Source: Chitinophagales bacterium (GTDB lineage Bacteria; Bacteroidota; Bacteroidia; Chitinophagales; Chitinophagaceae). From it: 64,000 nt of DNA. The notes under the pieces were generated by a model. The model did not search any database. It was not told the origin of the DNA and saw nothing but the letters and a program-made list of their open reading frames with translations. The DNA lies in NCBI GenBank assembly GCA_021323755.1, contig JAJPKJ010000036.1, positions 1 to 64,000 of the forward strand, written 5' to 3'. Made by a program: the position numbers and the translations under genes. How positions within the stretch are numbered: the stretch's first letter is position 1; each line of letters opens with the position of its first letter. Below, one piece after another: positions 2,887-18,939 of this stretch.

Positions 2887-3897
2887 TCATTTATCTTTTT
2901 TGACCTTTAGTTCGTATCGCAGAATAATGTCACCATTGTATATCAAATGCAACCACTCCATATCTGCGGATGAAACTATATAAGTGTATTTTATTTTCTT
3001 ACCAATGATCTCCGGCTGTAAAAAAACAACCGAAGGATATTTCGCGAGCATATTTGAATCGAGTGACGCAGTATCTGCAGATTTTCTTTTATCCGCATCA
3101 GCATCTGAGGTTTGCAAGGTAAAATTCAAGGTGTCGCCAATCGCCGTTTCTATAATTCCCTTCGCGGGTATTATTGAAGTAATATTATACTTGATAAATG
3201 ATCTTTGTTTAAAGGGAGAATTGTAAAATTCTTCGGGGGCTGACGGCGCTGCCAACAATGTCCATTGCAGATCATCCGGGAAATGATCGCGGATGAAAAT
3301 TTCCGGCGATGTGAAAAAATAAAAATCATCGAAATGCTCAATAAAATTGCTGCCATAATAGGTAAAATATCCGCTTGCCCAGGTAACATCGATCAGATGC
3401 CAGGCGCTATCAACAAAAACGGCATTCCAATAATGATTAGAAAAAAAACGGGTGCCGATATGATTCATATTTCCGCGGGCATAACCTGTTATCAATACGG
3501 ATTGAATACCTGCATAATCGCAAAGGGTTTTAAAAAGGCGGGCATAGCCTTCGCAAACAGCTGATAGATTTCTTAATACCGTTTCTGCAACGAATTCATC
3601 AGCAGAATTTACTACAACTGAATCAATCGGTTTTAAGAGTATTTTTTTTTGAGAGGAATAATTTTTATTAGCGCTATGTCTTGCTTTATATTCAACATGT
3701 TCAGCTATCCAACTAAAAATGGCACGAACTTTTTGTGCTTGTGTTGAATAAGGCGCAGTGAGTTTTTGGGCAAGATCGAAAGCTGAGGCAGGCTCGATGG
3801 ATCGAACCCGCTCATCAATCTCGCTAAAACCAATATTCTGCTGAGCAAAAATGATGGTTGCAGAAATCAACAATAATATCAATAGGCAATATTTCAT
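2887..3897 (-). CDS. Secreted transglutaminase-like protein
   Basis: A signal peptide (MKYCLLILLLISATIIFA, then QQ) leads into a transglutaminase-like core of the PF01841 type. The likely triad is Cys in AVCEGYARLFKTLCDYAG, His in SNHYWNAVFVDSAWH and Asp in HLIDVTWASG. These domains act as proteases, peptide N-glycanase-like enzymes or peptidoglycan/protein crosslink hydrolases, and the substrate cannot be deduced. The C-terminal 120 residues look like beta-rich accessory sequence. ATG 3897 was chosen because it begins a clean signal peptide; the longer frame adds 24 unlikely residues. It is divergent from the YCII gene at 3983. Confidence 0.75.
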   Translation of the reverse strand: MKYCLLILLLISATIIFAQQNIGFSEIDERVRSIEPASAFDLAQKLTAPYSTQAQKVRAIFSWIAEHVEYKARHSANKNYSSQKKILLKPIDSVVVNSADEFVAETVLRNLSAVCEGYARLFKTLCDYAGIQSVLITGYARGNMNHIGTRFFSNHYWNAVFVDSAWHLIDVTWASGYFTYYGSNFIEHFDDFYFFTSPEIFIRDHFPDDLQWTLLAAPSAPEEFYNSPFKQRSFIKYNITSIIPAKGIIETAIGDTLNFTLQTSDADADKRKSADTASLDSNMLAKYPSVVFLQPEIIGKKIKYTYIVSSADMEWLHLIYNGDIILRYELKVKKDK

Positions 3898-3982
3898 AAA
3901 AAAGCCAGGAGCAATTTCGCACTTATTTAATATTTGTTGGACATTTATCATCGGGATAGAAAAAAACAAATCTTAAGATTTT

Positions 3983-4321
3983 ATGACCGACATTACTGAT
4001 GAGCACATGATGAGCATGCGCTCCAAAACAAAAGAATATAGTGCTGTAATTTTAAAAGCAGGTCCAAAAAGATATGAGCCTGGAGTAGAAAAAATAATCT
4101 GGGAACACGGACGCCGCAATTTTGCTCTAAGAGCTGACGGTATATTAAGTATTGTCTGTCCCGTTATTGACGGAAGCGACACGAGCGGAATTGGCATCTT
4201 TAATGCAACTCTGGAAGAAACGAAAAAAATAATGGATGATGATCCGGGGGTAAAAGCGGGAGTGTTTGTCTATGAATTGCATCTTTGCCGAAGTTTTCCC
4301 GGAGACGCTTTGCCAGCTTAA
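3983..4321 (+). CDS. YCII-related domain protein
   Basis: This 112-residue soluble protein fits the YCII/YciI alpha/beta-barrel-like family. It has a first strand EYSAVILKAGPKRY, a histidine in the following helix region (EHGRRNFALRADG), a strand LSIVCPVI, then SGIGIFNATLEETKKIMDDDPGVKAGVFVYELH. It differs from the DGPF-type protein at 268 in lacking the NGPFG box. The biochemical role is unknown. It ends 21 bases before a strong bidirectional terminator that also serves the convergent isomerase-like gene. Confidence 0.75.
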   Translation: MTDITDEHMMSMRSKTKEYSAVILKAGPKRYEPGVEKIIWEHGRRNFALRADGILSIVCPVIDGSDTSGIGIFNATLEETKKIMDDDPGVKAGVFVYELHLCRSFPGDALPA

Positions 4322-8292: not shown

Positions 8293-8517
8293 ATAATTTT
8301 CATATGTGGTATAACGTATAATAGACAAATTCTTGTATAACAGAGCGCAAGTTACTCAATATTAACAAATCGGTGATTTTATAGAAAATGACGGAAAAAT
8401 CCTGTAATTGGCGCTTATTTGACTTTAATTACGCGTCATCCTCAATTAAAACGAAGCCCAACCATTATTGTGAATAAATCTTCAGCCAAAATTATTTTTT
8501 AATTGATCTTTCTGATT

Positions 8518-8525
8518 TATATTTG
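8518..8525 (+). promoter_or_regulatory. Promoter -7 box of the sulfate assimilation operon
   Basis: TATATTTG matches the Bacteroidota -7 consensus TAnnTTTG exactly. Transcription should start near 8529-8531, about 20 bases before the Cys4 leader peptide. No clear TTTG -33 box was found at the usual distance. The identical TATATTTG occurs at 15996, before the second leader. Confidence 0.65.
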
Positions 8526-8548
8526 TCCACTCAATTGGTAGACTTAAT
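8523..8548 (+). promoter_or_regulatory. Degenerate fourth copy of the sulfur-locus operator motif
   Basis: The segment containing CCACTCAATTGGTAGACT agrees with the 26-base motif found at 11595, 15966 and 16113 at about 16 of 26 positions, keeping ACT, AATT and TAGACT in register. It overlaps the -7 box and the expected transcription start, a position that would suit a repressor. It is weaker than the other three, and chance similarity in AT-rich DNA cannot be excluded. Confidence 0.4.
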
Positions 8549-8549
8549 T

Positions 8550-8603
8550 ATGAATCAACTTCTATCTTTCCAATTTCGCTGTTGTTGCTGCATGCGCAGC
8601 TAA
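8550..8603 (+). CDS. Putative cysteine-sensing leader peptide (Cys4)
   Basis: ATG 8550 starts a 17-codon frame, MNQLLSFQFRCCCCMRS, ending with TAA at 8601-8603. Codons 11-14 are TGT TGT TGC TGC. It lies about 20 bases after the predicted transcription start and 54 bases before cysH. A run of four Cys codons immediately before a cysteine biosynthesis operon is the classic layout of an amino-acid-responsive leader peptide. Polycysteine leader frames that attenuate sulfur genes are known in mycobacteria; this one is in a different phylum. The start has no Shine-Dalgarno sequence, as usual here. A 5-bp hairpin overlaps its last codons. Translation is inferred, not shown. Confidence 0.75.
   Translation: MNQLLSFQFRCCCCMRS
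8587..8600 (+). promoter_or_regulatory. Hairpin overlapping the Cys codons of the leader
   Basis: GCTGC (8587-8591) pairs perfectly with GCAGC (8596-8600) around the loop ATGC. The 5' arm overlaps the third and fourth Cys codons and the 3' arm ends at the base before the leader stop codon. A ribosome stalled on the Cys codons would cover it. A pyrimidine run with seven T (8624-8630) follows 23 bases later, but no strong stem sits directly before it. Confidence 0.5.
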
Positions 8604-8657
8604 AGATTACCCCTCTGATATTCTTTTTTTCCCATTTCATCAACGCCAAAAAAATTC

Positions 8658-9377
8658 ATGATCACCGAAACGTCAAAAATACATGCTCCCCAATTACTCC
8701 ACCAAATTAGTGGAGTAAAGGTCGATGATGCATTGCGTTTATTATTGAATGAATTTCCCGGGCAGGTAACTTTCTCATCGAGTTTTAGCGTAGAAGACCA
8801 GGTCATCACACACATTATATTATCAAGCAATCTCCCCGTTTCCATTTTTACGCTGGATACAGGAAGATTATTTGCAGAAACATATTCGACCTGGAACACC
8901 ACAAATGAAAAATACGGAGTGAAGATAAAAGCATTTTATCCCGACAGAAATTTACTTGAAACATTTATTGATGAAAAGGGCCCGAATGCATTTTATGAAT
9001 CAGTTGCAAACAGAAAAGAATGTTGCTTCATCAGAAAAGTGGAACCATTAAAAAGAGCATTGTCCGGAAATGCGGTGTGGGTAACGGGCTTACGCGCCGA
9101 GCATTCCCCGGAAAGAAAAAATCATGAGATCATTGAATGGGATGAAACAAATAAGATCATCAAATACAATCCTATTTTAAATTGGACATCCGAAGAGGTA
9201 AAGCGATTTATCCATGAACATGATGTGCCTTATAATATTTTACATGATAGAGGATTTGTGAGTATCGGATGTGCACCTTGCACACGCGCGATCAAAGCCG
9301 GCGAAGATTTTCGTGCGGGAAGATGGTGGTGGGAAGATGCCAGTAAAAAAGAATGCGGGTTGCACGCAGCAAATTAA
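8658..9377 (+). CDS. cysH: Assimilatory APS/PAPS reductase, [4Fe-4S] type
   Basis: The 239-residue protein reduces adenylyl sulfate (or PAPS) to sulfite in the cytoplasm. The nucleotide-binding region is SFSVEDQ (about 42-48) followed by LDTGRL. Cluster cysteines are CC at 122-123 and CAPC at 205-208, and the catalytic cysteine is C233 in the C-terminal KKECGLH. The paired cluster cysteines mark the APS-reductase subfamily, which agrees with the absence of an APS kinase (cysC) in this locus. It is the first gene of the sulfate-reduction operon: cysD follows 3 bases after its stop. Control is expected from the promoter at 8518 and the Cys4 leader upstream. Confidence 0.93.
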   Translation: MITETSKIHAPQLLHQISGVKVDDALRLLLNEFPGQVTFSSSFSVEDQVITHIILSSNLPVSIFTLDTGRLFAETYSTWNTTNEKYGVKIKAFYPDRNLLETFIDEKGPNAFYESVANRKECCFIRKVEPLKRALSGNAVWVTGLRAEHSPERKNHEIIEWDETNKIIKYNPILNWTSEEVKRFIHEHDVPYNILHDRGFVSIGCAPCTRAIKAGEDFRAGRWWWEDASKKECGLHAAN

Positions 9378-9380
9378 ATT

Positions 9381-10289
9381 ATGACCAATCATCAATTAGA
9401 TTATCTTGATCAATTAGAATCGGAGGCGATTCACATCCTCCGTGAAGTTGCCGGGCAATTCGAGCGGCCTGCACTATTGTTCAGTGGCGGCAAGGATTCG
9501 ATAACCTTAGTCCATCTTGCTTTAAAAGCCTTTCGCCCCGGAAAATTTCCCTTCCCCTTGGTTCATATTGATACCGGCCATAATTTTCCTGAAGCCCTTG
9601 ATTTTCGAGATGAACTGGCAAATAAGATCGGGGAAAAATTGGTTGTGCGCAAAGTGGAGGATACGATCAAAACAAAACATTTAACGGAGCCAAAAGGAAA
9701 ATTCGCTAGCAGAAATCAACTACAGACTTACACACTGCTCGATACGATTGAGGAATTTGAATTTGATGCATGCATTGGCGGCGCTCGTCGTGATGAAGAA
9801 AAAGCGAGAGCGAAAGAAAGGATCTTTTCCGTTCGTGATGAATTTGGACAATGGGATCCGAAACTGCAGAGACCGGAATTGTGGAATATCTACAACGGAA
9901 AAATTCAAAAAGGGGAGAATGTGCGTGTTTTTCCCATCAGCAACTGGACAGAAGCTGATATTTGGAATTATATCCGCCGAGAAGACATTGCCTTACCATC
10001 AATTTATTTTTCGCATGAACGCGATGTGATCGAACATGAAGGACAGTTGGTGGCCGTTTCAGATTTTATTCGTTTGGATGAAACTGATCAGATCCTGAAA
10101 AAGAAAGTTCGTTACAGAACTGTGGGCGATATGACCTGCACTGCTGCTGTCGAATCTAGCGCATCAACCATTGAAGACATTATTAAAGAAATAACAGCAA
10201 CAAAAACAAGTGAGCGTGGTGAAACAAGGATTGATGATAAAGTTTCGGAAGCCGCCATGGAAGACAGAAAAAAGAACGGGTATTTTTAA
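9381..10289 (+). CDS. cysD: Sulfate adenylyltransferase subunit 2
   Basis: At 302 residues this matches the normal length of CysD, the catalytic ATP pyrophosphatase subunit that makes adenylyl sulfate from sulfate and ATP. The PP-loop is SGGKDS at residues 35-40. Other family landmarks are HIDTGHNFPEALDFRD, GGARRDEEKARAKER, FPISNWTEADIWNYI and a C-terminal YRTVGDMTCTAAVES segment. It begins 3 bases after cysH, so the two are probably translationally coupled, and cysN follows 49 bases later. The active enzyme is a heterodimer with the CysN GTPase. Confidence 0.95.
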   Translation: MTNHQLDYLDQLESEAIHILREVAGQFERPALLFSGGKDSITLVHLALKAFRPGKFPFPLVHIDTGHNFPEALDFRDELANKIGEKLVVRKVEDTIKTKHLTEPKGKFASRNQLQTYTLLDTIEEFEFDACIGGARRDEEKARAKERIFSVRDEFGQWDPKLQRPELWNIYNGKIQKGENVRVFPISNWTEADIWNYIRREDIALPSIYFSHERDVIEHEGQLVAVSDFIRLDETDQILKKKVRYRTVGDMTCTAAVESSASTIEDIIKEITATKTSERGETRIDDKVSEAAMEDRKKNGYF

Positions 10290-10338: not shown

Positions 10339-11580
10339 ATGGATTTATTACGTTTTATAACAGCAGGAAGTGTTGATGACGGCAAAAGCACGCTGATCGG
10401 GCGTTTGCTGTTTGACAGCAAAAATATCCTGGTTGATCAGTTGGAAGCTTTGGAAAGACAAAGTAAAAATCGTGAGGATGGCGAGATTGATCTGGCATTA
10501 TTAACCGATGGACTGCGCGCCGAACGTGAGCAGGGGATCACGATTGATGTAGCGTACAAATATTTTTCAACGCCGAAACGCAAATTTATTATTGCCGATG
10601 CGCCGGGACATATTCAATACACGCGCAACATGATCACAGGCGCTTCAAATGCAGACCTGATCATTATTTTAATTGATGCGCGAAACGGCGTTGCCGAGCA
10701 GACACGTCGCCATTCCATTATCGCCTCGCTGCTGAAAATTCCGCACGTTATTATTGCGGTCAATAAAATGGATCTGGTAAATTACTCACAAGACATTTTC
10801 AACAATATTCTTATTGATTATGCAGAGATCGCAAGATCGCTGGACTTACCCGACGTCACTTATATTCCGATCAGCGCATTGAAGGGGGACAATATTGTCG
10901 ACAGGTCATTGTCACTCTCCTGGTACGATGGGCAAACTTTATTGGATGTACTTGAAAACGTACGTGTTGAAAATGATGTAAACCTTACTGATGCTCGTTT
11001 TCCGGTACAATATATTATTCGCCCGCAAACCGATGAATTGCATGATTATCGGGGTTATGCGGGAAAGATAATCAGCGGCATCTATAAAAAAGGTGATGAA
11101 ATTATCGTGCTTCCTTCATTATTCAACAGCAAAATAAAAAGTATTGAATTTGGCGGCAAGGAATTGAATGAAGCTTTTGCAACGCAAAGCGTAATCCTGC
11201 AATTGGAAGATGATATAGATATTAGTCGTGGAGATATGATCGTAAAAAATGATCATCAACCAAGAGTAGAACAGGAATTGAATGTGCTGTTGTGTTGGAT
11301 GGATAATAAACCCCTTGTGGCCGGGAATAAGTATTTATTGCAGATCAATAGTCGTCGTGTCCGCAGTTCGGTAAAAGAAATCGAATTCAAATTGGATGTG
11401 AATACGCTGGAAAAAAATTATGACCCGGCACAGGCATCGCTTAATGATATTGTAAAAGCAAAAATCAAAGCGGCATCACCGATTCCTTTTGATTCATACA
11501 AAGAGTTACGCGCTAATGGCGGGGCGATATTGATCGATGAAACGAGTAATGTAACGGTAGCAGCTTGTATGATTCAATAA
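10339..11580 (+). CDS. cysN: Sulfate adenylyltransferase subunit 1 (GTPase)
   Basis: This 413-residue translation-factor-like GTPase drives APS synthesis with CysD. The G1 loop is AGSVDDGKST (9-18), the G3 motif is DAPGH (87-91) and the G4 motif is NKMD (142-145). The switch region carries REQGITIDVAY. Two EF-Tu-like beta-barrel domains follow (from about residue 225). The chain ends without the CysC APS-kinase domain that is fused in some bacteria, matching the APS-type reductase encoded upstream. A copy of the sulfur operator motif lies just after its stop codon. Confidence 0.95.
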   Translation: MDLLRFITAGSVDDGKSTLIGRLLFDSKNILVDQLEALERQSKNREDGEIDLALLTDGLRAEREQGITIDVAYKYFSTPKRKFIIADAPGHIQYTRNMITGASNADLIIILIDARNGVAEQTRRHSIIASLLKIPHVIIAVNKMDLVNYSQDIFNNILIDYAEIARSLDLPDVTYIPISALKGDNIVDRSLSLSWYDGQTLLDVLENVRVENDVNLTDARFPVQYIIRPQTDELHDYRGYAGKIISGIYKKGDEIIVLPSLFNSKIKSIEFGGKELNEAFATQSVILQLEDDIDISRGDMIVKNDHQPRVEQELNVLLCWMDNKPLVAGNKYLLQINSRRVRSSVKEIEFKLDVNTLEKNYDPAQASLNDIVKAKIKAASPIPFDSYKELRANGGAILIDETSNVTVAACMIQ

Positions 11581-11594
11581 TTTTTTTACACGTA

Positions 11595-11620
11595 TATCCT
11601 ACTAAATTTATAGACTAATA
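11595..11620 (+). promoter_or_regulatory. Sulfur-locus operator motif, copy A
   Basis: A 26-base near-palindrome with core CCTACTAAATTTATAGAC ends two bases before the ATG of the methyltransferase gene at 11623. It matches the copy at 16113 at 25 of 26 positions and the reverse complement of the copy at 15966 at 23 of 26. The partial dyad is CTA..AA.TT..TAG. It is probably the site of a sulfur regulator; the Rrf2/CymR-like family is a guess. It implies an internal promoter or control point within the operon. Confidence 0.65.
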
Positions 11621-11622
11621 AA

Positions 11623-12450
11623 ATGAACAGAACACCAGAAAAAAAAGGCAAGGTTATCATCGTTGGAGCTGGCCCCGGCGATCCGGAATTGCTCACCATA
11701 AAAGCGCTCCGGGCATTGCAACAAGCCGAGGTCATCATAACTGATCGCCTGGTGAGTAATGTGATATTGTATGAATATGCAAATAAAGATGCGCTCATTT
11801 TGCATGTTGGCAAACAATGCCGCAAAGGCGCCTCCACTCCACAACATATCATCAATGAGTTATTGGCTGATTATGCTTTGCAGGGGAAATTGGTTGTTCG
11901 TTTAAAAGGCGGAGATGTTTCATTATTTTCAAATGTGCTGGATGAATTAAATACGTTAACGCAACATAAAATCGGGTATGAGATTATTCCCGGTATTACT
12001 GCAGCATCAGGTGCTGCTGCCTATTCCGGGATCCCTTTAACAGCAAGGGATCATGCTGCCGCAGTTCGTTTCATTACTTATTACAAAACCGATTTATTGA
12101 ATGATGATTATTGGAAGGAACTTGCCAAGACTGAGGATACCCTTGTATTTTATATGTCCTCAGATACAATCAATGCACTGATTACAAAACTGATTGATAA
12201 CAAAATTGACCCTTCGGTGCACATCGCCGTTATAGAGCAGGCAACTACTCCTTTACAAAATATTTACAGTTGTAATGTCTATGACTATGCGAAAAAATGG
12301 AACAACAACATTTACGTATCGCCAACATTAATAATCGTTGGGAAAGTTGCGGCGTTACACGAAAAATTTCAGTGGCTGCAAAATAGCCATAGCAAACAAA
12401 ATTATTTTGATCCTGTAAACGAAAAAGCCACGGCAGCAGCCCGAGCATGA
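11623..12450 (+). CDS. cobA: Uroporphyrinogen-III C-methyltransferase (SUMT)
   Basis: This 275-residue protein performs the two SAM-dependent methylations of uroporphyrinogen III that give precorrin-2, the first step towards siroheme. Family motifs are GAGPGDPELLT (15-25), GKQCRKGAST, VRLKGGDVSLFS and PGITAASGAAAYSGIPLTAR. The usual length is about 250-280 residues. It stands alone here; the next steps (dehydrogenase and chelatase) lie in the fused protein at 18936. Its product, siroheme, is the cofactor of the sulfite reductase hemoprotein encoded at 14288. An operator motif ends two bases upstream of the start, so it may be transcribed separately from cysHDN under some conditions. Confidence 0.92.
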   Translation: MNRTPEKKGKVIIVGAGPGDPELLTIKALRALQQAEVIITDRLVSNVILYEYANKDALILHVGKQCRKGASTPQHIINELLADYALQGKLVVRLKGGDVSLFSNVLDELNTLTQHKIGYEIIPGITAASGAAAYSGIPLTARDHAAAVRFITYYKTDLLNDDYWKELAKTEDTLVFYMSSDTINALITKLIDNKIDPSVHIAVIEQATTPLQNIYSCNVYDYAKKWNNNIYVSPTLIIVGKVAALHEKFQWLQNSHSKQNYFDPVNEKATAAARA

Positions 12451-12480: not shown

Positions 12481-14172
12481 ATGTTAACGAACGAAAAATT
12501 AAAGGTTATACAAGATCTGATCGCTACTTCCACAAAAGAAGAGATAATCTGGCTTAATGGATATCTTGCCGGACTACTGGCCCAAAATGGAGAGCAGGCA
12601 GAGAATAATACTCCTCCAAAACCGCAGGTTGGAAAAATCACCATTGCTTATGGAACAGAGACCGGGAACTCAAAAAAAATCGCGACTGATTTCGCTTCCA
12701 AAGCAAAAAAGAATGGCATCAATGCAAAAATTGTAAGCCTTGACCAATACCGACTGGATGATCTGCAGAAAGAAGAATATTTTTTTACAGTGATCAGCAC
12801 CCAGGGCGAAGGTGAGCCACCGGCAGCCGCAAAAAAGTTCTACGACCATATACATAAAAATGGATTTAAACTTCAAAAATTAAAATATGGCGTGTTGGCC
12901 TTGGGCGATACAGCCTATCCGCTTTTTTGCAAAGCCGGTGAAGATGTTGATGCACAATTGCAAGTACTCGGTGGAGAAAGAATTGCTTCCTTGCAAAAAT
13001 GCGATACCGATTATGAAACCGAAGCGGTAAAATGGTTTTCGGAAATTTTGCAAAAGCTGGATGGCACGCCGGCACAAAGAATAATAACGACCCCTGTAAC
13101 CAAAAAACATATCGGAAAAAAGATTTATACAGGCAAGGTGCTTACAAATATTAATCTTAATGACAGAGGTTCAAATAAACAAACACATCATATCGAGATT
13201 GCCGCTGATGATTTAGACTATCAGCCCGGAGATTCAATCGGAATTGTTCCAGAAAATCATGTGGAAATTGTCCAGGCAATCATTGATCTGACGAACACCA
13301 ATCAAAATAAATTATTACCCTATCGAAATGAAGAGCTTCGGGTTGTTGATTTCCTTACAAAAAAGCTGAACATTATTCATCTTCCGGAAAGAGTGGTAAA
13401 AAAATATGCGACGATTATTCAACAGGAGATCCCAGAGACAAAGATCAGTCTGCTCGACCTATTAAAGATTTATCCAGTAAGAGATGCTGCGCAATTTGAA
13501 GAAGTCATCAGCATTCTCGAGCCGATCACCCCAAGACTGTATTCCATTTCATCTTCGTTACAATCGCATGAAGGGGAAGTGCACATCACCGTTGCGCAAG
13601 ATACATTCACGATCAATGACGAATTAAAACACGGATTATGTTCCGGCTTTTTATCGCATCTCCACCACAATGACAGCATAGAATTTTACGTGCATAAAAA
13701 CACGCAATTCAAATTACCCGCGCCGGATAAGGATATCATCATGATCGGTCCCGGAACTGGTATCGCTCCTTTCCGTTCTTTTCTTGCCGAACGCGATGCA
13801 ACAGGCGCGAAAGGAAAAAACTGGTTGTTCTTTGGTGAGCAACATTTTACTTCAGACTTCTTATATCAAACGGAAATTCAAAATTGGATTCAAACAGATG
13901 TGCTCACGAGAGTTAATGTTGCCTTTTCCCGGGACACAAAAGAAAAAATTTATGTTCAGCATAAAATGTTAAAGCACGCTGAAGAACTTTTTGACTGGGT
14001 CAATAATGGAGCTTATCTGTATGTATGTGGCGCCAAGGAACCCATGAGCGTGGATGTTGAAAACACTTTGTTGAAAATCATAAAAGAAGTTGGCAAAAAA
14101 AATGATCTCGAAGCAAGCGACTATCTAAATGAATTAAAAGAAGCAGGAAGATATCTGAAAGATGTTTATTAA
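12481..14172 (+). CDS. cysJ: Sulfite reductase flavoprotein subunit
   Basis: The 563-residue diflavin reductase passes electrons from NADPH through FAD and FMN to the sulfite reductase hemoprotein. A helical N-terminus leads into a flavodoxin domain beginning IAYGTETGNSKK (about 56-67) with the FMN loop STQGEGEPPAAA. Then come the FAD domain with RLYSISSS, the NADPH-binding GPGTGIAPFRSFLAERDATG, a YVCGAKEPMSVDVENTL segment and the C-terminal aromatic YLKDVY. The order and length match CysJ/SiR-FP. It lies between the methyltransferase and hemoprotein genes. A small hairpin (14185-14203) sits in the 115-base gap before the hemoprotein. Confidence 0.9.
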   Translation: MLTNEKLKVIQDLIATSTKEEIIWLNGYLAGLLAQNGEQAENNTPPKPQVGKITIAYGTETGNSKKIATDFASKAKKNGINAKIVSLDQYRLDDLQKEEYFFTVISTQGEGEPPAAAKKFYDHIHKNGFKLQKLKYGVLALGDTAYPLFCKAGEDVDAQLQVLGGERIASLQKCDTDYETEAVKWFSEILQKLDGTPAQRIITTPVTKKHIGKKIYTGKVLTNINLNDRGSNKQTHHIEIAADDLDYQPGDSIGIVPENHVEIVQAIIDLTNTNQNKLLPYRNEELRVVDFLTKKLNIIHLPERVVKKYATIIQQEIPETKISLLDLLKIYPVRDAAQFEEVISILEPITPRLYSISSSLQSHEGEVHITVAQDTFTINDELKHGLCSGFLSHLHHNDSIEFYVHKNTQFKLPAPDKDIIMIGPGTGIAPFRSFLAERDATGAKGKNWLFFGEQHFTSDFLYQTEIQNWIQTDVLTRVNVAFSRDTKEKIYVQHKMLKHAEELFDWVNNGAYLYVCGAKEPMSVDVENTLLKIIKEVGKKNDLEASDYLNELKEAGRYLKDVY

Positions 14173-14287: not shown

Positions 14288-15955
14288 ATGCCTGAAAATT
14301 TATCGCCAGTTGAAAAAATAAAAAAAGAAAGCCACGCGCTTCGGGGAACAATCGCCGAAGAACTGTTAAACGAAACCACAGGAGCAATCAGTGAAGACGA
14401 TCAGGCTGTGATAAAGTTTCACGGGATGTATCAGCAGGACGATCGGGATCGCCGTGATGAACGCGCGGAAAAAAAACTGGAACGCTTATACTCTTTTATG
14501 ATCCGCTTACGCTTGCCCGGAGGATTTCTCACACCCCAGCAATGGATCGCTACGCATCATATTGCCGGAGAGAATTCTACCGGGGTTATCAAAATCACCA
14601 CGCGTCAAACCATACAATTGCATGGTTTGATCAAATCTAAAATAAAACCAACCATTAAGGCATTCAGCGCAGCAAAGTTGGATTCGATAGCCACTTGCGG
14701 GGATATTAACCGAAATGTGATTTGCGCTGCTCATCCATTGCAATCCCCGATTCATGCTAACGTGCATCAATATGCGAAAAAGATCAGCGAATTGTTAATG
14801 CCTAAAACAAGAGCATATTATGAGATATGGCTCGATGAAGAAAAGATCGCTGATAAAAAAGATGAAGAAGATCCGCTTTACCAGGATCGCTATCTTCCAC
14901 GCAAATTTAAAATTGCCATTGCCATTCCGCCGAATAATGATGTAGATGTTTTTGCAAACGACATCGGGTTAATAGCGATCATAGAAGATAATGAGTTAAA
15001 GGGCTTTAATATTGCCGTTGGAGGCGGATTGTCGGCAACGCACGGTAATCCGGCAACCTATCCAAGAATTGCAACAGTCATTGGTTTTGTGGCGGGTGAG
15101 GAAAAAATATTCAAAACGGTTTATGCCATTGCAACTGTTCAGCGTGATTTCGGCAACCGAAGTGATCGCAAGCTTGCCCGTTTAAAATACACCATCGACA
15201 GGCATGGGATCGGATGGTTCAAAGAAGAAGTGGAAAGAAGGATTGGATATATGTTGGAGCAGCCGCGCCCCTATTCATTTACTGAACGCAAAGATTATTA
15301 CGGCTGGCAACAAAATCACGACGGGCTTTGGTATTATACCCCATTTGTAGAAAATGGCAGGTTGCTCGATGATGAAAACGCCGCGCTAAAAACGGCCTTC
15401 CTGGAAATTGCAAAAACCGGCAAGGCGAACTTCCGCTTTACCGGAAATCAAAATGTAATTATTGCCGATATCCGGGAAAATGATAAGACAGCGATTGAAA
15501 CAATTCTGAAAAAATTTAGAGTCGATGAGCACACCCAAAAGGCCTCGGCAATCAGAAAGAATTCCATGGCATGCGTGGCATTAAATACCTGTCCATTAGC
15601 GTTAGCAGAAGGACAGCGTTATCTCCCCTCGTTGATAACGAAAATCGAAGCCCTGGTAAATCAATACGACCTGACCAAAGAAGAGATCATCATCCGGATG
15701 ACCGGCTGCCCAAATGGTTGTGCGCGACCATATTTGGCAGAGATCGGTTTTGTGGGAATAGCCTATGGCTCTTACAACCTTCACCTTGGCGGCAGCCATG
15801 AAGGAACCAGATTGAACAAAATCTATAAAGAAAATCTGGATGAGGGAGCGATTTTAAACGAATTGAACTCATTATTCCTGATGTTCAGTAAAGAAAAAAA
15901 CCCCGCAGAAACATTTGGGGATTTTGCAGTAAGAAAAGGATTGGTTTCTTTTTAA
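14288..15955 (+). CDS. cysI: Sulfite reductase hemoprotein (nitrite/sulfite reductase family)
   Basis: This 555-residue siroheme/[4Fe-4S] enzyme makes the six-electron reduction of sulfite to sulfide. The cluster and siroheme ligands are C429 and C435 (ACVALNTCPLA) and C474 and C478 (TGCPNGCARPY). Other landmarks are FMIRLRLPGGFLTPQQW, ITTRQTIQLHG, the Asp/Asn segment CGDINRNVICAAHP and the N-half GGGLSATHGNPATYP. The length equals the CysI/SiR family (about 550-590) and the flavoprotein partner is just upstream, favouring sulfite over nitrite as substrate. It ends the cysH-to-cysI run; 10 bases later an operator and a new promoter begin. Confidence 0.9.
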   Translation: MPENLSPVEKIKKESHALRGTIAEELLNETTGAISEDDQAVIKFHGMYQQDDRDRRDERAEKKLERLYSFMIRLRLPGGFLTPQQWIATHHIAGENSTGVIKITTRQTIQLHGLIKSKIKPTIKAFSAAKLDSIATCGDINRNVICAAHPLQSPIHANVHQYAKKISELLMPKTRAYYEIWLDEEKIADKKDEEDPLYQDRYLPRKFKIAIAIPPNNDVDVFANDIGLIAIIEDNELKGFNIAVGGGLSATHGNPATYPRIATVIGFVAGEEKIFKTVYAIATVQRDFGNRSDRKLARLKYTIDRHGIGWFKEEVERRIGYMLEQPRPYSFTERKDYYGWQQNHDGLWYYTPFVENGRLLDDENAALKTAFLEIAKTGKANFRFTGNQNVIIADIRENDKTAIETILKKFRVDEHTQKASAIRKNSMACVALNTCPLALAEGQRYLPSLITKIEALVNQYDLTKEEIIIRMTGCPNGCARPYLAEIGFVGIAYGSYNLHLGGSHEGTRLNKIYKENLDEGAILNELNSLFLMFSKEKNPAETFGDFAVRKGLVSF

Positions 15956-15965
15956 AAAATATTTC

Positions 15966-15991
15966 TATTAGTCTACTAATTTAATAGGATA
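15966..15991 (-). promoter_or_regulatory. Sulfur-locus operator motif, copy B
   Basis: The reverse complement of this 26-base segment matches copy A at 23 of 26 positions (TATCCTA...TAGACTAATA). It starts 10 bases after the cysI stop codon and lies directly upstream of the -7 box at 15996, across where a -33 box would be. A regulator here could activate or repress the second leader transcript. Confidence 0.65.
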
Positions 15992-16112: not shown

Positions 16113-16138
16113 TATCCTACTAAAATTATAGACTAATA
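16113..16138 (+). promoter_or_regulatory. Sulfur-locus operator motif, copy C
   Basis: The 26-base element (core CCTACTAAAATTATAGAC) differs from copy A at one position and has the same orientation and nearly the same place relative to the next start codon; its last base is the A of the receptor's ATG. It lies after the second leader, so it could control a separate transcript or, being next to the start codon, act on RNA. Confidence 0.6.
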
Positions 16139-18939
16139 TGTTCACCAAATTATTACTGCTCTTCTCTTTCTTTATTATAATATCAGCCCGAATTTCGGCC
16201 CAGGACTCCTACATTATTTCCGGAAAAATTTACGATTCTGTAAATAACCAGCAGCTTTCCGGCGCTTCGGTAAAAATAAAAGGTTCAAATTCCGGAACGA
16301 TGGCAAAACCGGACGGAAGTTTTCAAATAAAGTCAAATCAAAAATTACCACTGACCGTGATTATTTCATCGGTGGGTTACAAAACGCAGGAATTCGTTGT
16401 GACCGACAATAATGCCAGCGGAATTTCCATTGCACTGAACACGCAAAATCTGTTAATAGATCCGGTGGTGGTTACAGCCTCACGGTTATCGGAAAGTATA
16501 TTGAGATCGCCGGTAACCATTGAAAAACTGGATCTGCGGGCGATAAAAGAGAGCCCAGCTCCCACTTTTTTTGACGCCTTGGGAAATGTAAAAGGTGTAC
16601 AGGTTACTACCCTCAGTCTGGGTTACCAGGTATTGAATACGCGTGGTTTTAGTGGCACAACCAACTCGCGGTTTTTGCAAATGACCGATGGCGTTGATAA
16701 TATCTCTCCCGGCATTGGCGCCCCCATTGGCAATGCTGTAGGGCCGACGGAGCTTGATATTGAAAGCGTAGAACTCATACCTGGAGCGGCTTCAGCGTTA
16801 TATGGACTGAATGCCGTTAATGGAATTGCGAACATGAAAACGAAATCGCCATTTCAGTACCAGGGATTAAGTGTTTATCAAAAAGTTGGCGTAAATCATG
16901 TTGCAGACAAAGCACATGAAGCTGCTTTATACTCAGAATCAGCCATTCGTTTTGCAAAAGTGATCGGAGACAGATTTGCGTTCAAAATCAATGCCGCCTA
17001 TTCACGCGGAACGGACTGGATCGCAGACAATCGTCACGACCAATATTTTGACGTTGGCAACAAAACAAATCTTTCCCTTGCCAGTGATAATCCTGCAGCA
17101 GATCTGATCAATCGTTATGGAGATGAATACAACAGCGATCTAAAAACGCTTACCCTCGGGGGGAAAAAATATGATGTCAGCCGCACTGGGTATCTTGAAA
17201 AAGATCTGACAGATTATTCAATCAAGAATACAAAAGTAGACCTTGGCCTGCATTATAAAATTACGAGCAATACCGAAGCATCATATACTTACCGCATCGG
17301 AACAGTAAGCAATTTTTATCAACGTGGAAACCGCATCAGGCTTGATGGAGAGCAGATCCAACAACATGCATTTGAATTAAAGAGTTCAGATTTCGACATC
17401 AAAGCGTATTACACACATGAGAATACGGGCAACTCTTACAACCTGCGCCCGCTTGCAGAAAATATTGACCTGGCGTTTAAAAAGCCAACGCAATGGTACG
17501 GTGATTATACGACCGCTTTTAATAATGCTATTGCAGGCGGAAGTACAATATCGGCGGCGCATGATGCAGGAAGAGCAGCCGCAGATAATGGAAGATTTCA
17601 ACCCGGTACAAAGGCCTTCGACAGTGTGCTGAACAGGATCACCCACATCAATAATTGGGATACAGTGGGCGCAGCGTTGATTTTAAAATCTGCATTTGTG
17701 CATGTTGAAGGACAATATGATTGGTCGAGAATTATTCCGGGCATTCAAATTTTAACCGGATTCAATTACAGAAATTATATAGTTACACCCGATGGTAATA
17801 ATTATGTCAATCCAGCATCTTTCAATAATAAAGATGAATCGAATTCAAACTTTAATTATTACAGTTATGGCGGGTTTATCCAGGCTAATAAAAATCTTCT
17901 TGATGAAAAACTAAAACTTACCGCATCACTACGCGTAGATAAATCAGATTATTTCAATCCGAAATTCAACCCGCGCATAGCGGCCGTGTATTCACCAAGC
18001 GAACAAAATAATTTCAGGATATCTTTCCAAAATGGTTATCGTTTCCCGACATTATTTGAAGGTTTTGCCTACGTAAATAATGGCGGCGTCAGAAGGTTGG
18101 GAGGATTACCGGTCATTTCACAACATCTTGGTGTCTTTGAAAATTCTTATCTTAATACATCAGTGACTGCTTTTAAGAATGCAGTGAATGCAGATGTAAA
18201 CAGCGGATTGTCACAGGGGGATGCAATAACAAAAGATGCTAATCTGCTTGTAAAGAGCATCTACACTTATATTCAACCCGAACATATCAATTCATTTGAA
18301 ATCGGCTACAAGGGATTATTGTTGGATAATAAATTGTTTATCGATATTGACTATTATTTCAGTTTATATGATCATTTTATCGGTCAATTGGATGTTACAC
18401 AACCTTACAAAGGAACAATCGGCACTGATGACAGTACGGCCAATTATGCTTACGCCGGCGGTAAACAGGTAAACAAATTTAAGATGTGGACGAATTCCAA
18501 GAGTCGTGTAACCAACCAGGGCGTTGAGTTTGGGGCAACATATAATTTCTATAGCAAGTTTACTATTTCTGGAAACGCGAGTTATGCTGCATTGGCAAGC
18601 GTGGAATCATCTGATGCTTTTACTCCAGCATTCAACACCCCAAATTGGATTGTAAACATTTCCATTGGTAATCGCGAAATAGTAAAGAACACCGGGTTCA
18701 ATGTTGGCTGGCATTGGCAAAATGAATTTTATTGGAACAGTCCGCTAGCGGCCGGCGAAGTGCCTTCATATGGATCATTTGATGCACAAGTGAATTATCG
18801 GATCCCCAATTTGTTAAGTACATTGAAACTGGGTGCAACTGATATTTTCAACCACCGGTATTATCAATATCTTGGCGGACCAACCATTGGCGGGTTCTAT
18901 TATTTCACCATTGTCTTTGATGCAGGTGCAAAAAAATGA
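16138..18939 (+). CDS. TonB-dependent outer membrane receptor of the sulfur locus
   Basis: A signal peptide ends at ISA with Gln as the first mature residue. Next is a carboxypeptidase-regulatory-like beta-sandwich (about 24-110, SGKIYDSVNNQQLSGASVKI and GYKTQEFVV), then a plug domain (TRGFSGTTNSRFLQMTDGVD, VELIPGAASALYGLNAVNGI) and a 22-strand barrel ending in aromatic-rich strands. At 933 residues it is a normal size for the phylum. No SusD-type gene accompanies it. The substrate is unknown, but its position suggests uptake of a sulfur compound or sulfate. Its stop overlaps the next start (ATGA at 18936-18939), so it is translationally coupled to the siroheme/permease fusion. Confidence 0.88.
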   Translation: MFTKLLLLFSFFIIISARISAQDSYIISGKIYDSVNNQQLSGASVKIKGSNSGTMAKPDGSFQIKSNQKLPLTVIISSVGYKTQEFVVTDNNASGISIALNTQNLLIDPVVVTASRLSESILRSPVTIEKLDLRAIKESPAPTFFDALGNVKGVQVTTLSLGYQVLNTRGFSGTTNSRFLQMTDGVDNISPGIGAPIGNAVGPTELDIESVELIPGAASALYGLNAVNGIANMKTKSPFQYQGLSVYQKVGVNHVADKAHEAALYSESAIRFAKVIGDRFAFKINAAYSRGTDWIADNRHDQYFDVGNKTNLSLASDNPAADLINRYGDEYNSDLKTLTLGGKKYDVSRTGYLEKDLTDYSIKNTKVDLGLHYKITSNTEASYTYRIGTVSNFYQRGNRIRLDGEQIQQHAFELKSSDFDIKAYYTHENTGNSYNLRPLAENIDLAFKKPTQWYGDYTTAFNNAIAGGSTISAAHDAGRAAADNGRFQPGTKAFDSVLNRITHINNWDTVGAALILKSAFVHVEGQYDWSRIIPGIQILTGFNYRNYIVTPDGNNYVNPASFNNKDESNSNFNYYSYGGFIQANKNLLDEKLKLTASLRVDKSDYFNPKFNPRIAAVYSPSEQNNFRISFQNGYRFPTLFEGFAYVNNGGVRRLGGLPVISQHLGVFENSYLNTSVTAFKNAVNADVNSGLSQGDAITKDANLLVKSIYTYIQPEHINSFEIGYKGLLLDNKLFIDIDYYFSLYDHFIGQLDVTQPYKGTIGTDDSTANYAYAGGKQVNKFKMWTNSKSRVTNQGVEFGATYNFYSKFTISGNASYAALASVESSDAFTPAFNTPNWIVNISIGNREIVKNTGFNVGWHWQNEFYWNSPLAAGEVPSYGSFDAQVNYRIPNLLSTLKLGATDIFNHRYYQYLGGPTIGGFYYFTIVFDAGAKK

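Follow-up and report, generated by a model that had tools for sequence, protein, structure and literature searches.

A 17-codon open reading frame on the forward strand of the window (the whole 64 kb stretch of DNA analysed here), situated at 8550-8603 and directly ahead of the sulfate-reduction genes, is very probably a translated Cys-codon sensor that controls the operon behind it, a role that we assign from the position, the codon identity and the gene set of this and related leaders. Taken as a whole, we consider it likely that the region works as a cysteine-sensing switch of the cysH-cysD-cysN-methyltransferase-cysJ-cysI operon with an output that combines RNA pairing and Rho, ribosome stalling, the action of Rho and the direction of the response being the parts that we infer.

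The leader frame and the operon behind it

The frame opens with ATG at 8550, closes with TAA at 8601-8603 and, on reading the window, encodes MNQLLSFQFRCCCCMRS. Its codons 11-14 are the four Cys codons TGT TGT TGC TGC (8580-8591), a run that is kept in relatives and is the proposed stall site, and three residues separate this run from the stop. A further 54 bases lead from the leader stop to the ATG of cysH at 8658, and the sequence thus bears out the first-pass annotation in its description of 17 codons, four consecutive cysteines and the spacing to cysH. Upstream, the promoter-like box TATATTTG (8518-8525, forward strand) ends 24 bases before the leader ATG, fits the consensus of the Bacteroidota -7 box, TAnnTTTG, and has comparable boxes (TATCTTTG/TATATTTG) at the equivalent position in relatives; this predicted box suggests a transcript start about 20 nt upstream of the leader ATG. 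A small hairpin, GCUGC-AUGC-GCAGC (8587-8600, forward strand), lies directly 3' of the first Cys codons in both the minimum-energy and the centroid structures, and no conservation of it was seen among the other cysH leaders, as far as these were read. Rfam riboswitch and leader families gave no match at the gathering score across the 64 kb.

The genes downstream, all on the forward strand, form a complete sulfate-to-sulfide set plus the siroheme enzyme: cysH, a phosphoadenylyl/adenylyl-sulfate reductase (8658-9377, NCBIfam PAPS/APS reductase), cysD (9381-10289) and cysN (10339-11580), uroporphyrinogen-III C-methyltransferase, which serves the siroheme of sulfite reductase (11623-12450), a cysJ-like sulfite reductase flavoprotein subunit (12481-14172; TIGR01931 at 567.6 bits, under the cut-off of 668) and cysI, the sulfite reductase hemoprotein subunit (14288-15955). 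All six assignments are from NCBIfam. Directly after cysI lies a TonB-dependent receptor (16138-18939) with a palindrome before its frame, which could import a sulfur compound.

Distribution of Cys leaders

For the comparison with relatives, cysH loci were taken from family genomes (77 of 117 with a match) and from 80 named contigs, and a Cys leader was counted where the 220 nt ahead of cysH contained an ATG frame, closed by a stop, with an uninterrupted run of three or more Cys codons. The family was assigned to Chitinophagaceae because cysH-upstream DNA of its members is identical to that of named Chitinophagaceae records (e.g., L015 and L052). It gave 78 cysH matches, of which 70 were read (30 loci and 40 fetched stretches); the other eight were G109, G051, the weak second match of G067 and five distant matches. 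Before the count we dropped L079, whose gene is cut, and L063, which has 64 nt of upstream sequence. Sixty of the resulting 148 loci have a Cys leader and none has one on the reverse strand. With identical regions removed, 56 of 144 distinct upstream regions carry it, as against 0/144 in the reverse complement and a mean of 0.35 (largest value 2) in 20 dinucleotide shuffles of the same set. The first-pass annotation had called the run unlikely by chance and had asked for its conservation upstream of cysH in relatives; these figures uphold it on both points. The rule found no leader in 88 of the 144 distinct regions, a figure in which a leaderless cysH is not always a leaderless operon, as a leader may precede the first gene of the operon (e.g., in L276), and none in the cysH loci read from Spirosoma, Runella, Larkinella, Chryseobacterium and Epilithonimonas. 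Scanning the phylum for TGYTGYTGYTGYTRR gave hits in 139 of 148 genomes; judging by examples most of these are not leaders, and the scan was excluded from counting.

Leaders were found in a relative of the same genus (MNTLSAPILELSFSCCNTCCCC), in all five Rufibacter loci (e.g., Rufibacter hautae, MVYSSHIKRMRFCCCSSCCCCC) and in many other genera of the family, with peptides such as MVKIDIYCCCCC and MNATNTQCCCCCC. The Cys run holds its position while the remaining peptide varies, with little shared outside the run. Geometry and pairing were studied on 52 leaders (43 representatives), eight of the 60 having been excluded because the stop lay over 100 nt away from cysH or because of repeated sequence. 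Among these 52, the run starts at codon 7-32 (median 12.5), abuts the stop in 35 and lies no more than two residues from it in 46, and the stop is 39-83 nt away from cysH; cysteine is encoded by TGT (199) as well as by TGC (95).

The same leader type occurs ahead of other genes, and these too belong to sulfur metabolism or head a cysH operon. Among 181 control genes, i.e., other genes of the named loci whose upstream region is free (cysH having been removed by a crude motif filter that may have taken out a few other control genes), only seven have a Cys leader: four metY, two uroporphyrinogen methyltransferase (TP-methylase/SUMT) and one DUF4395 gene, the last sitting just before cysH at the head of its operon. 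In the genome of the window, all 51 matches to TGYTGYTGYTGY were examined and two runs lie outside open frames of at least about 98 codons on either strand, with the proviso that a covering open frame is not proof of a gene. One is the cysH leader and the other is MQTKQHHISLPPQQNICCICCCCCMPQGIL, 108 nt before metY (O-acetylhomoserine/O-acetylserine sulfhydrylase; the copy in this genome matches TIGR01326). Across metY loci, the strict rule gave a leader in 14/43 on the forward and 2/43 on the reverse strand, and a relaxed one (three Cys in seven residues, applied to the 37 loci of 70% identity or higher) gave 21/37 and 3/37, respectively. The same-genus relative keeps its cysH leader and has no leader before its metY (L238). 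A survey of the class (20 loci, mostly one per family) found a Cys leader in four and none in 16: the leader stands before a methyltransferase heading an operon with cysH-cysD-cysN in L276, before cysH and with seven Cys in L284, before nitrite/sulfite reductase in L286 and before homoserine dehydrogenase in L271.

Directly 3' of the Cys codons, 15 of the 37 metY loci have a hairpin of the form UGYAUGCC-NNNN-GGCA, and its exact form occurs in 10 of the 117 family genomes, where comparison of coordinates always places it 86-115 nt upstream of metY. As UGYAUGCCGYAAGGCAUA, often with a GNRA loop and with the stop codon either within or following it, the hairpin is seen in L237, L241, L244, L249, L251, L256, L262-L264, L071, L082, L084 and L091, and L240 keeps it without a Cys run. 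By eye, a second (CCC/GGG) hairpin seemed credible downstream of the metY leader, but the consensus fold retained only the first hairpin and the second was rejected. Rfam was run on 20 metY sources (all 16 leaderless loci with at least 70% identity and four of the 21 leader-bearing ones) and returned the SAM riboswitch (RF00162) in 10 of the 16 leaderless loci (L242, L243, L250, L252, L254, L257, L260, L077, L101, L240) and, farther upstream than the leader, in three of the four leader-bearing ones (L241, L244, L251); the metY locus of the window genome had none in this run. This suggests that at metY the Cys leader and the SAM riboswitch exchange or stack, i.e., that methionine and cysteine signals do.

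A palindrome also recurs near these genes. Its copy GTCCACTCAATTGGTAGAC (8525-8543), a candidate operator over the predicted start site, matches GTCYACN7GTAGAC with 0 mismatches and lies before the leader; further palindromes of the type GTCYAC-N7-GTAGAC or TCCTACTAAATTTATAGAC are found inside cysH (8697-8715), 8 nt before the methyltransferase frame (11597-11615), after cysI (15971-15989) and 5 nt ahead of the frame of the TonB receptor (16115-16133). At three mismatches the window holds 29 in total, which is not above chance (mean 22.6). With up to three mismatches, a related motif is present in 33 of the 52 cysH-leader regions (1 in shuffles), in 14 of 21 metY-leader regions (1 in shuffles) and also in 33 of 87 leaderless cysH loci (4 in shuffles), and it is possible that the palindrome is an operator of the sulfur regulon.

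Possible routes from a stalled ribosome to operon expression

How occupancy of the leader would be passed on to the operon can be approached from three kinds of sequence feature, namely terminators, RNA pairing and base composition. The scan for intrinsic terminators returned no terminator-like site in 8350-9450, with the reservation that the scanner accepts loops of up to 8 and overlooked the longer-looped hairpin of L097, so that a terminator with a long loop could escape it; in folds of the window, local structure between leader and cysH is weak and no long-looped terminator is seen. The first-pass annotation had proposed that ribosome stalling on Cys codons controls cysHDN; the conserved Cys run supports a sensor of this kind, and attenuation in the narrower sense, through an intrinsic terminator, finds no site in the window. 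Such hairpins are present in relatives. In L114 (Saprospiraceae; 3671-4028) two tandem Cys leaders, each followed by a terminator-like stem-loop and a T run, precede the DUF4395 gene and cysH, and L097 and L102 each have one terminator-like hairpin, GCCCTTCGG...CCGAAGGGC, before cysH, the first arm of which (CCCTTCGG) can pair with CCGAAGGG just after the Cys codons. L094 and L100 show another arrangement, in which the leader end (AUAACUGU...) pairs with the bases that immediately precede the start of the methyltransferase.

In the window, the arm AUUAUGAAU over the leader start codon (8547-8555) is complementary to AUUCAUGAU over the cysH start codon (8654-8662), and the two are paired in the centroid structure of the RNA. 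Across the 43 representatives, the duplex energy of leader start and cysH start averages -10.93 kcal/mol as compared with -9.01 kcal/mol for permuted partners (p = 5e-5); relative to shuffled partners the mean z is -0.78 (Wilcoxon p = 0.008, 11/43 below 0.05), and the control pairing of leader end with cysH start gives z -0.01. Pairing of the leader start is equally strong with windows taken from within cysH (mean rank 0.52-0.59 for 38 representatives). The window RNA folds no better than shuffles (z -0.05 and -1.21), and a long conserved structure was rejected on these non-significant fold energies. When the RNA is cut back to the position of the stalled ribosome, the cysH start is predicted to be more open, at 0.57 instead of 0.50 over the 52 leaders (p = 1.6e-4, a comparison in which the shortening itself is uncontrolled). 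Eleven loci form a subgroup that has TTGATGG in common at the leader start and, ahead of cysH, CCATCAA or a close variant of it; most core pairs are invariant and few covary, and three of the 11 (L082, L084, L152) have no Cys run. In these three the TTGATGG/CCATCAA element is kept upstream of cysH while the run is gone, the leader frame of L082 and L084 having shrunk to Met-Gly-Asn or Met-Gly-Lys. Based on the statistics of the class, we consider that leader start and cysH start probably pair.

Rho sites consist of C-rich, G-poor, unstructured RNA. In the window, the 78 nt from -28 relative to the cysH ATG contain 25 C and 5 G. Across leader-bearing loci, the C-over-G skew of the leader-to-cysH gap is 0.42, whereas the starts of 224 other genes give 0.15 (p = 8e-8). 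Between loci the skew is 0.36 in leader-bearing and 0.01 in leaderless cysH loci (p = 6e-9), two sets that differ in ancestry, and in leader-bearing loci the signal is limited to about -60 to +60 around the cysH ATG. By composition and group comparison, the C-rich, G-poor stretch at 8604-8709 (forward strand), running from the leader stop into cysH, is a candidate Rho-binding region, although the signal may have other causes and the composition may simply keep the RNA unstructured.

Putting these features together, we tentatively favor an output in which pairing between the two starts is combined with Rho, although our confidence in this part of the model falls somewhat short of even. The message would begin about 20 nt upstream of the leader, which ribosomes would translate. 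With Cys-tRNA plentiful, they would clear the four Cys codons and leave, the vacated 8547-8555 would pair with 8654-8662, cysH would remain untranslated and its naked C-rich RNA (8604-8709) would let Rho terminate transcription. With Cys-tRNA short, a ribosome would stall on 8580-8591 and others would queue over the leader start, the pairing would be blocked, and ribosomes could load on cysH and shield the C-rich RNA, so that the operon would be expressed. Given that a ribosome stalled at codon 11 would not reach the leader start, queueing must be assumed.

Two further schemes, each using one half of this output, are in our judgement unlikely to the same degree. The stalled leader ribosome could itself hide the start of a Rho site, as in tna, with no need for RNA pairing, and once it leaves, Rho would load after the leader stop and terminate before or in early cysH. 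That the C-rich, G-poor stretch begins at the leader stop and is absent in leaderless loci, that the Cys run ends at or within two residues of the stop in most leaders and that the window has no terminator all fit this scheme, and a corresponding proposal exists for the cys leaders of mycobacteria (PMC1262725). However, at about 105 nt in the window the stretch is so long that a stalled ribosome would cover its first part only, and as it enters cysH by about 60 nt it suits coupling to cysH translation as well. Alternatively, stalling could merely free the cysH start from its pairing with the leader start, making control purely translational with Rho uninvolved; the permutation and shuffle tests, the pairing in the centroid structure and the gain in openness favor this, but the control within cysH showed no excess, the fold z-scores are weak and three loci keep the pairing without a Cys run.

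Other explanations are much less probable. We give very little credence to the leader merely aiding cysH translation by reinitiation, as proposed in general for leader genes (PMC4833913), or to a Cys-rich peptide that itself acts by binding metals or thiols, with no stalling sensor in either case: neither accounts for the cysteine run or its confinement to sulfur genes, the stop-to-cysH gap of 39-83 nt is long for reinitiation, and for an acting peptide the sequence beyond the run is not kept. Marginally less credible still is classical transcription attenuation by terminator and antiterminator hairpins, for which the hairpins of L114, L097 and L102 can be cited, but to which the window opposes its lack of terminator-like sites and its weak local structure before cysH. 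Finally, TGY repeats are common in the window genome, as the 51 matches show, yet a chance frame or repeat is refuted by the conservation across relatives, with the genome-wide survey of runs also speaking against it, and we assign it practically no probability.

Relation to known leaders and implications

In the E. coli tna operon, which is under Rho control, tnaC is an arrest peptide sensing free tryptophan, and in Bacteroidota the Bacteroid-trp RNA corresponds to Trp leaders. The tnaC-Rho arrangement, also cited in PMC1262725, resembles the window in that a stalled leader ribosome adjoins an unstructured region, whereas for the leader described here we propose starvation for the cognate codon instead. 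Of the hallmarks of amino-acid leader attenuators, we found a run of codons for the end product, an occurrence before sulfur genes only and a run that is kept while the peptide is free; the intrinsic terminator with antiterminator that marks the classical kind is present in L114, L097 and L102 and was not found in the window.

The closest likeness is to Actinobacteria: PMC1262725 predicted, for mycobacteria and further members of the group, terminator-free Cys leaders ahead of cys operons, and polycysteine leaders were reportedly shown in mycobacteria, as leaderless frames (Canestrari 2020). These share with the window a short frame with a Cys run near its stop, a position before cys operons and no obvious terminator. 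They differ in that the mycobacterial frames are leaderless, while the window has a candidate promoter box 24 nt before the ATG and a predicted 5' leader of ~20 nt, and in that the gene set in Bacteroidota adds metY, the methyltransferase and sulfite reductase; moreover, the Bacteroidota leaders share the operator-like palindrome and those of metY carry a conserved GNRA hairpin. The uORFC-8-2 motif of Rhodobacterales is a two-Cys leader before cysS for which ribosome-mediated attenuation was proposed (PMC8632094). It has in common with the window leader the tandem Cys codons in a short upstream frame, but it has two of them, an intrinsic terminator in all cases and a tRNA synthetase gene behind it, and it belongs to the Alphaproteobacteria. 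Within the same phylum, leader control of amino-acid genes is represented by leader-peptide attenuation of amino-acid operons in Flavobacterium psychrophilum (PMC9723704) and by the Bacteroid-trp RNA (RF01692, PMC2864571), and the available portions of these sources name no cysteine leader. We found no cysteine leader of Bacteroidota in the library of open-access papers searched, in agreement with the first-pass annotation, which knew of no such description; a paper outside that scope is conceivable.

Bacteroidota ribosomes mostly do not use Shine-Dalgarno pairing. As a broader and more doubtful proposal than the output suggested for the window, Bacteroidota may share one exchangeable Cys-codon sensor across a sulfur regulon of cysH, metY, siroheme methyltransferase, sulfite reductase and homoserine dehydrogenase. 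It would be connected to outputs that vary by lineage, i.e., tandem terminators in Saprospiraceae, pairing of the leader stop with the methyltransferase start in L094/L100, pairing of the leader start with that of cysH plus a Rho-prone stretch in Chitinophagaceae, and before metY a GNRA hairpin that alternates or stacks with the SAM riboswitch. The leaders collected here provide comparative material in which the output changes while the sensor stays, and they mark small genes that annotation has overlooked. Apparently terminator-free in the family studied, the Cys leaders of Bacteroidota would show an independent use of the same sensor.
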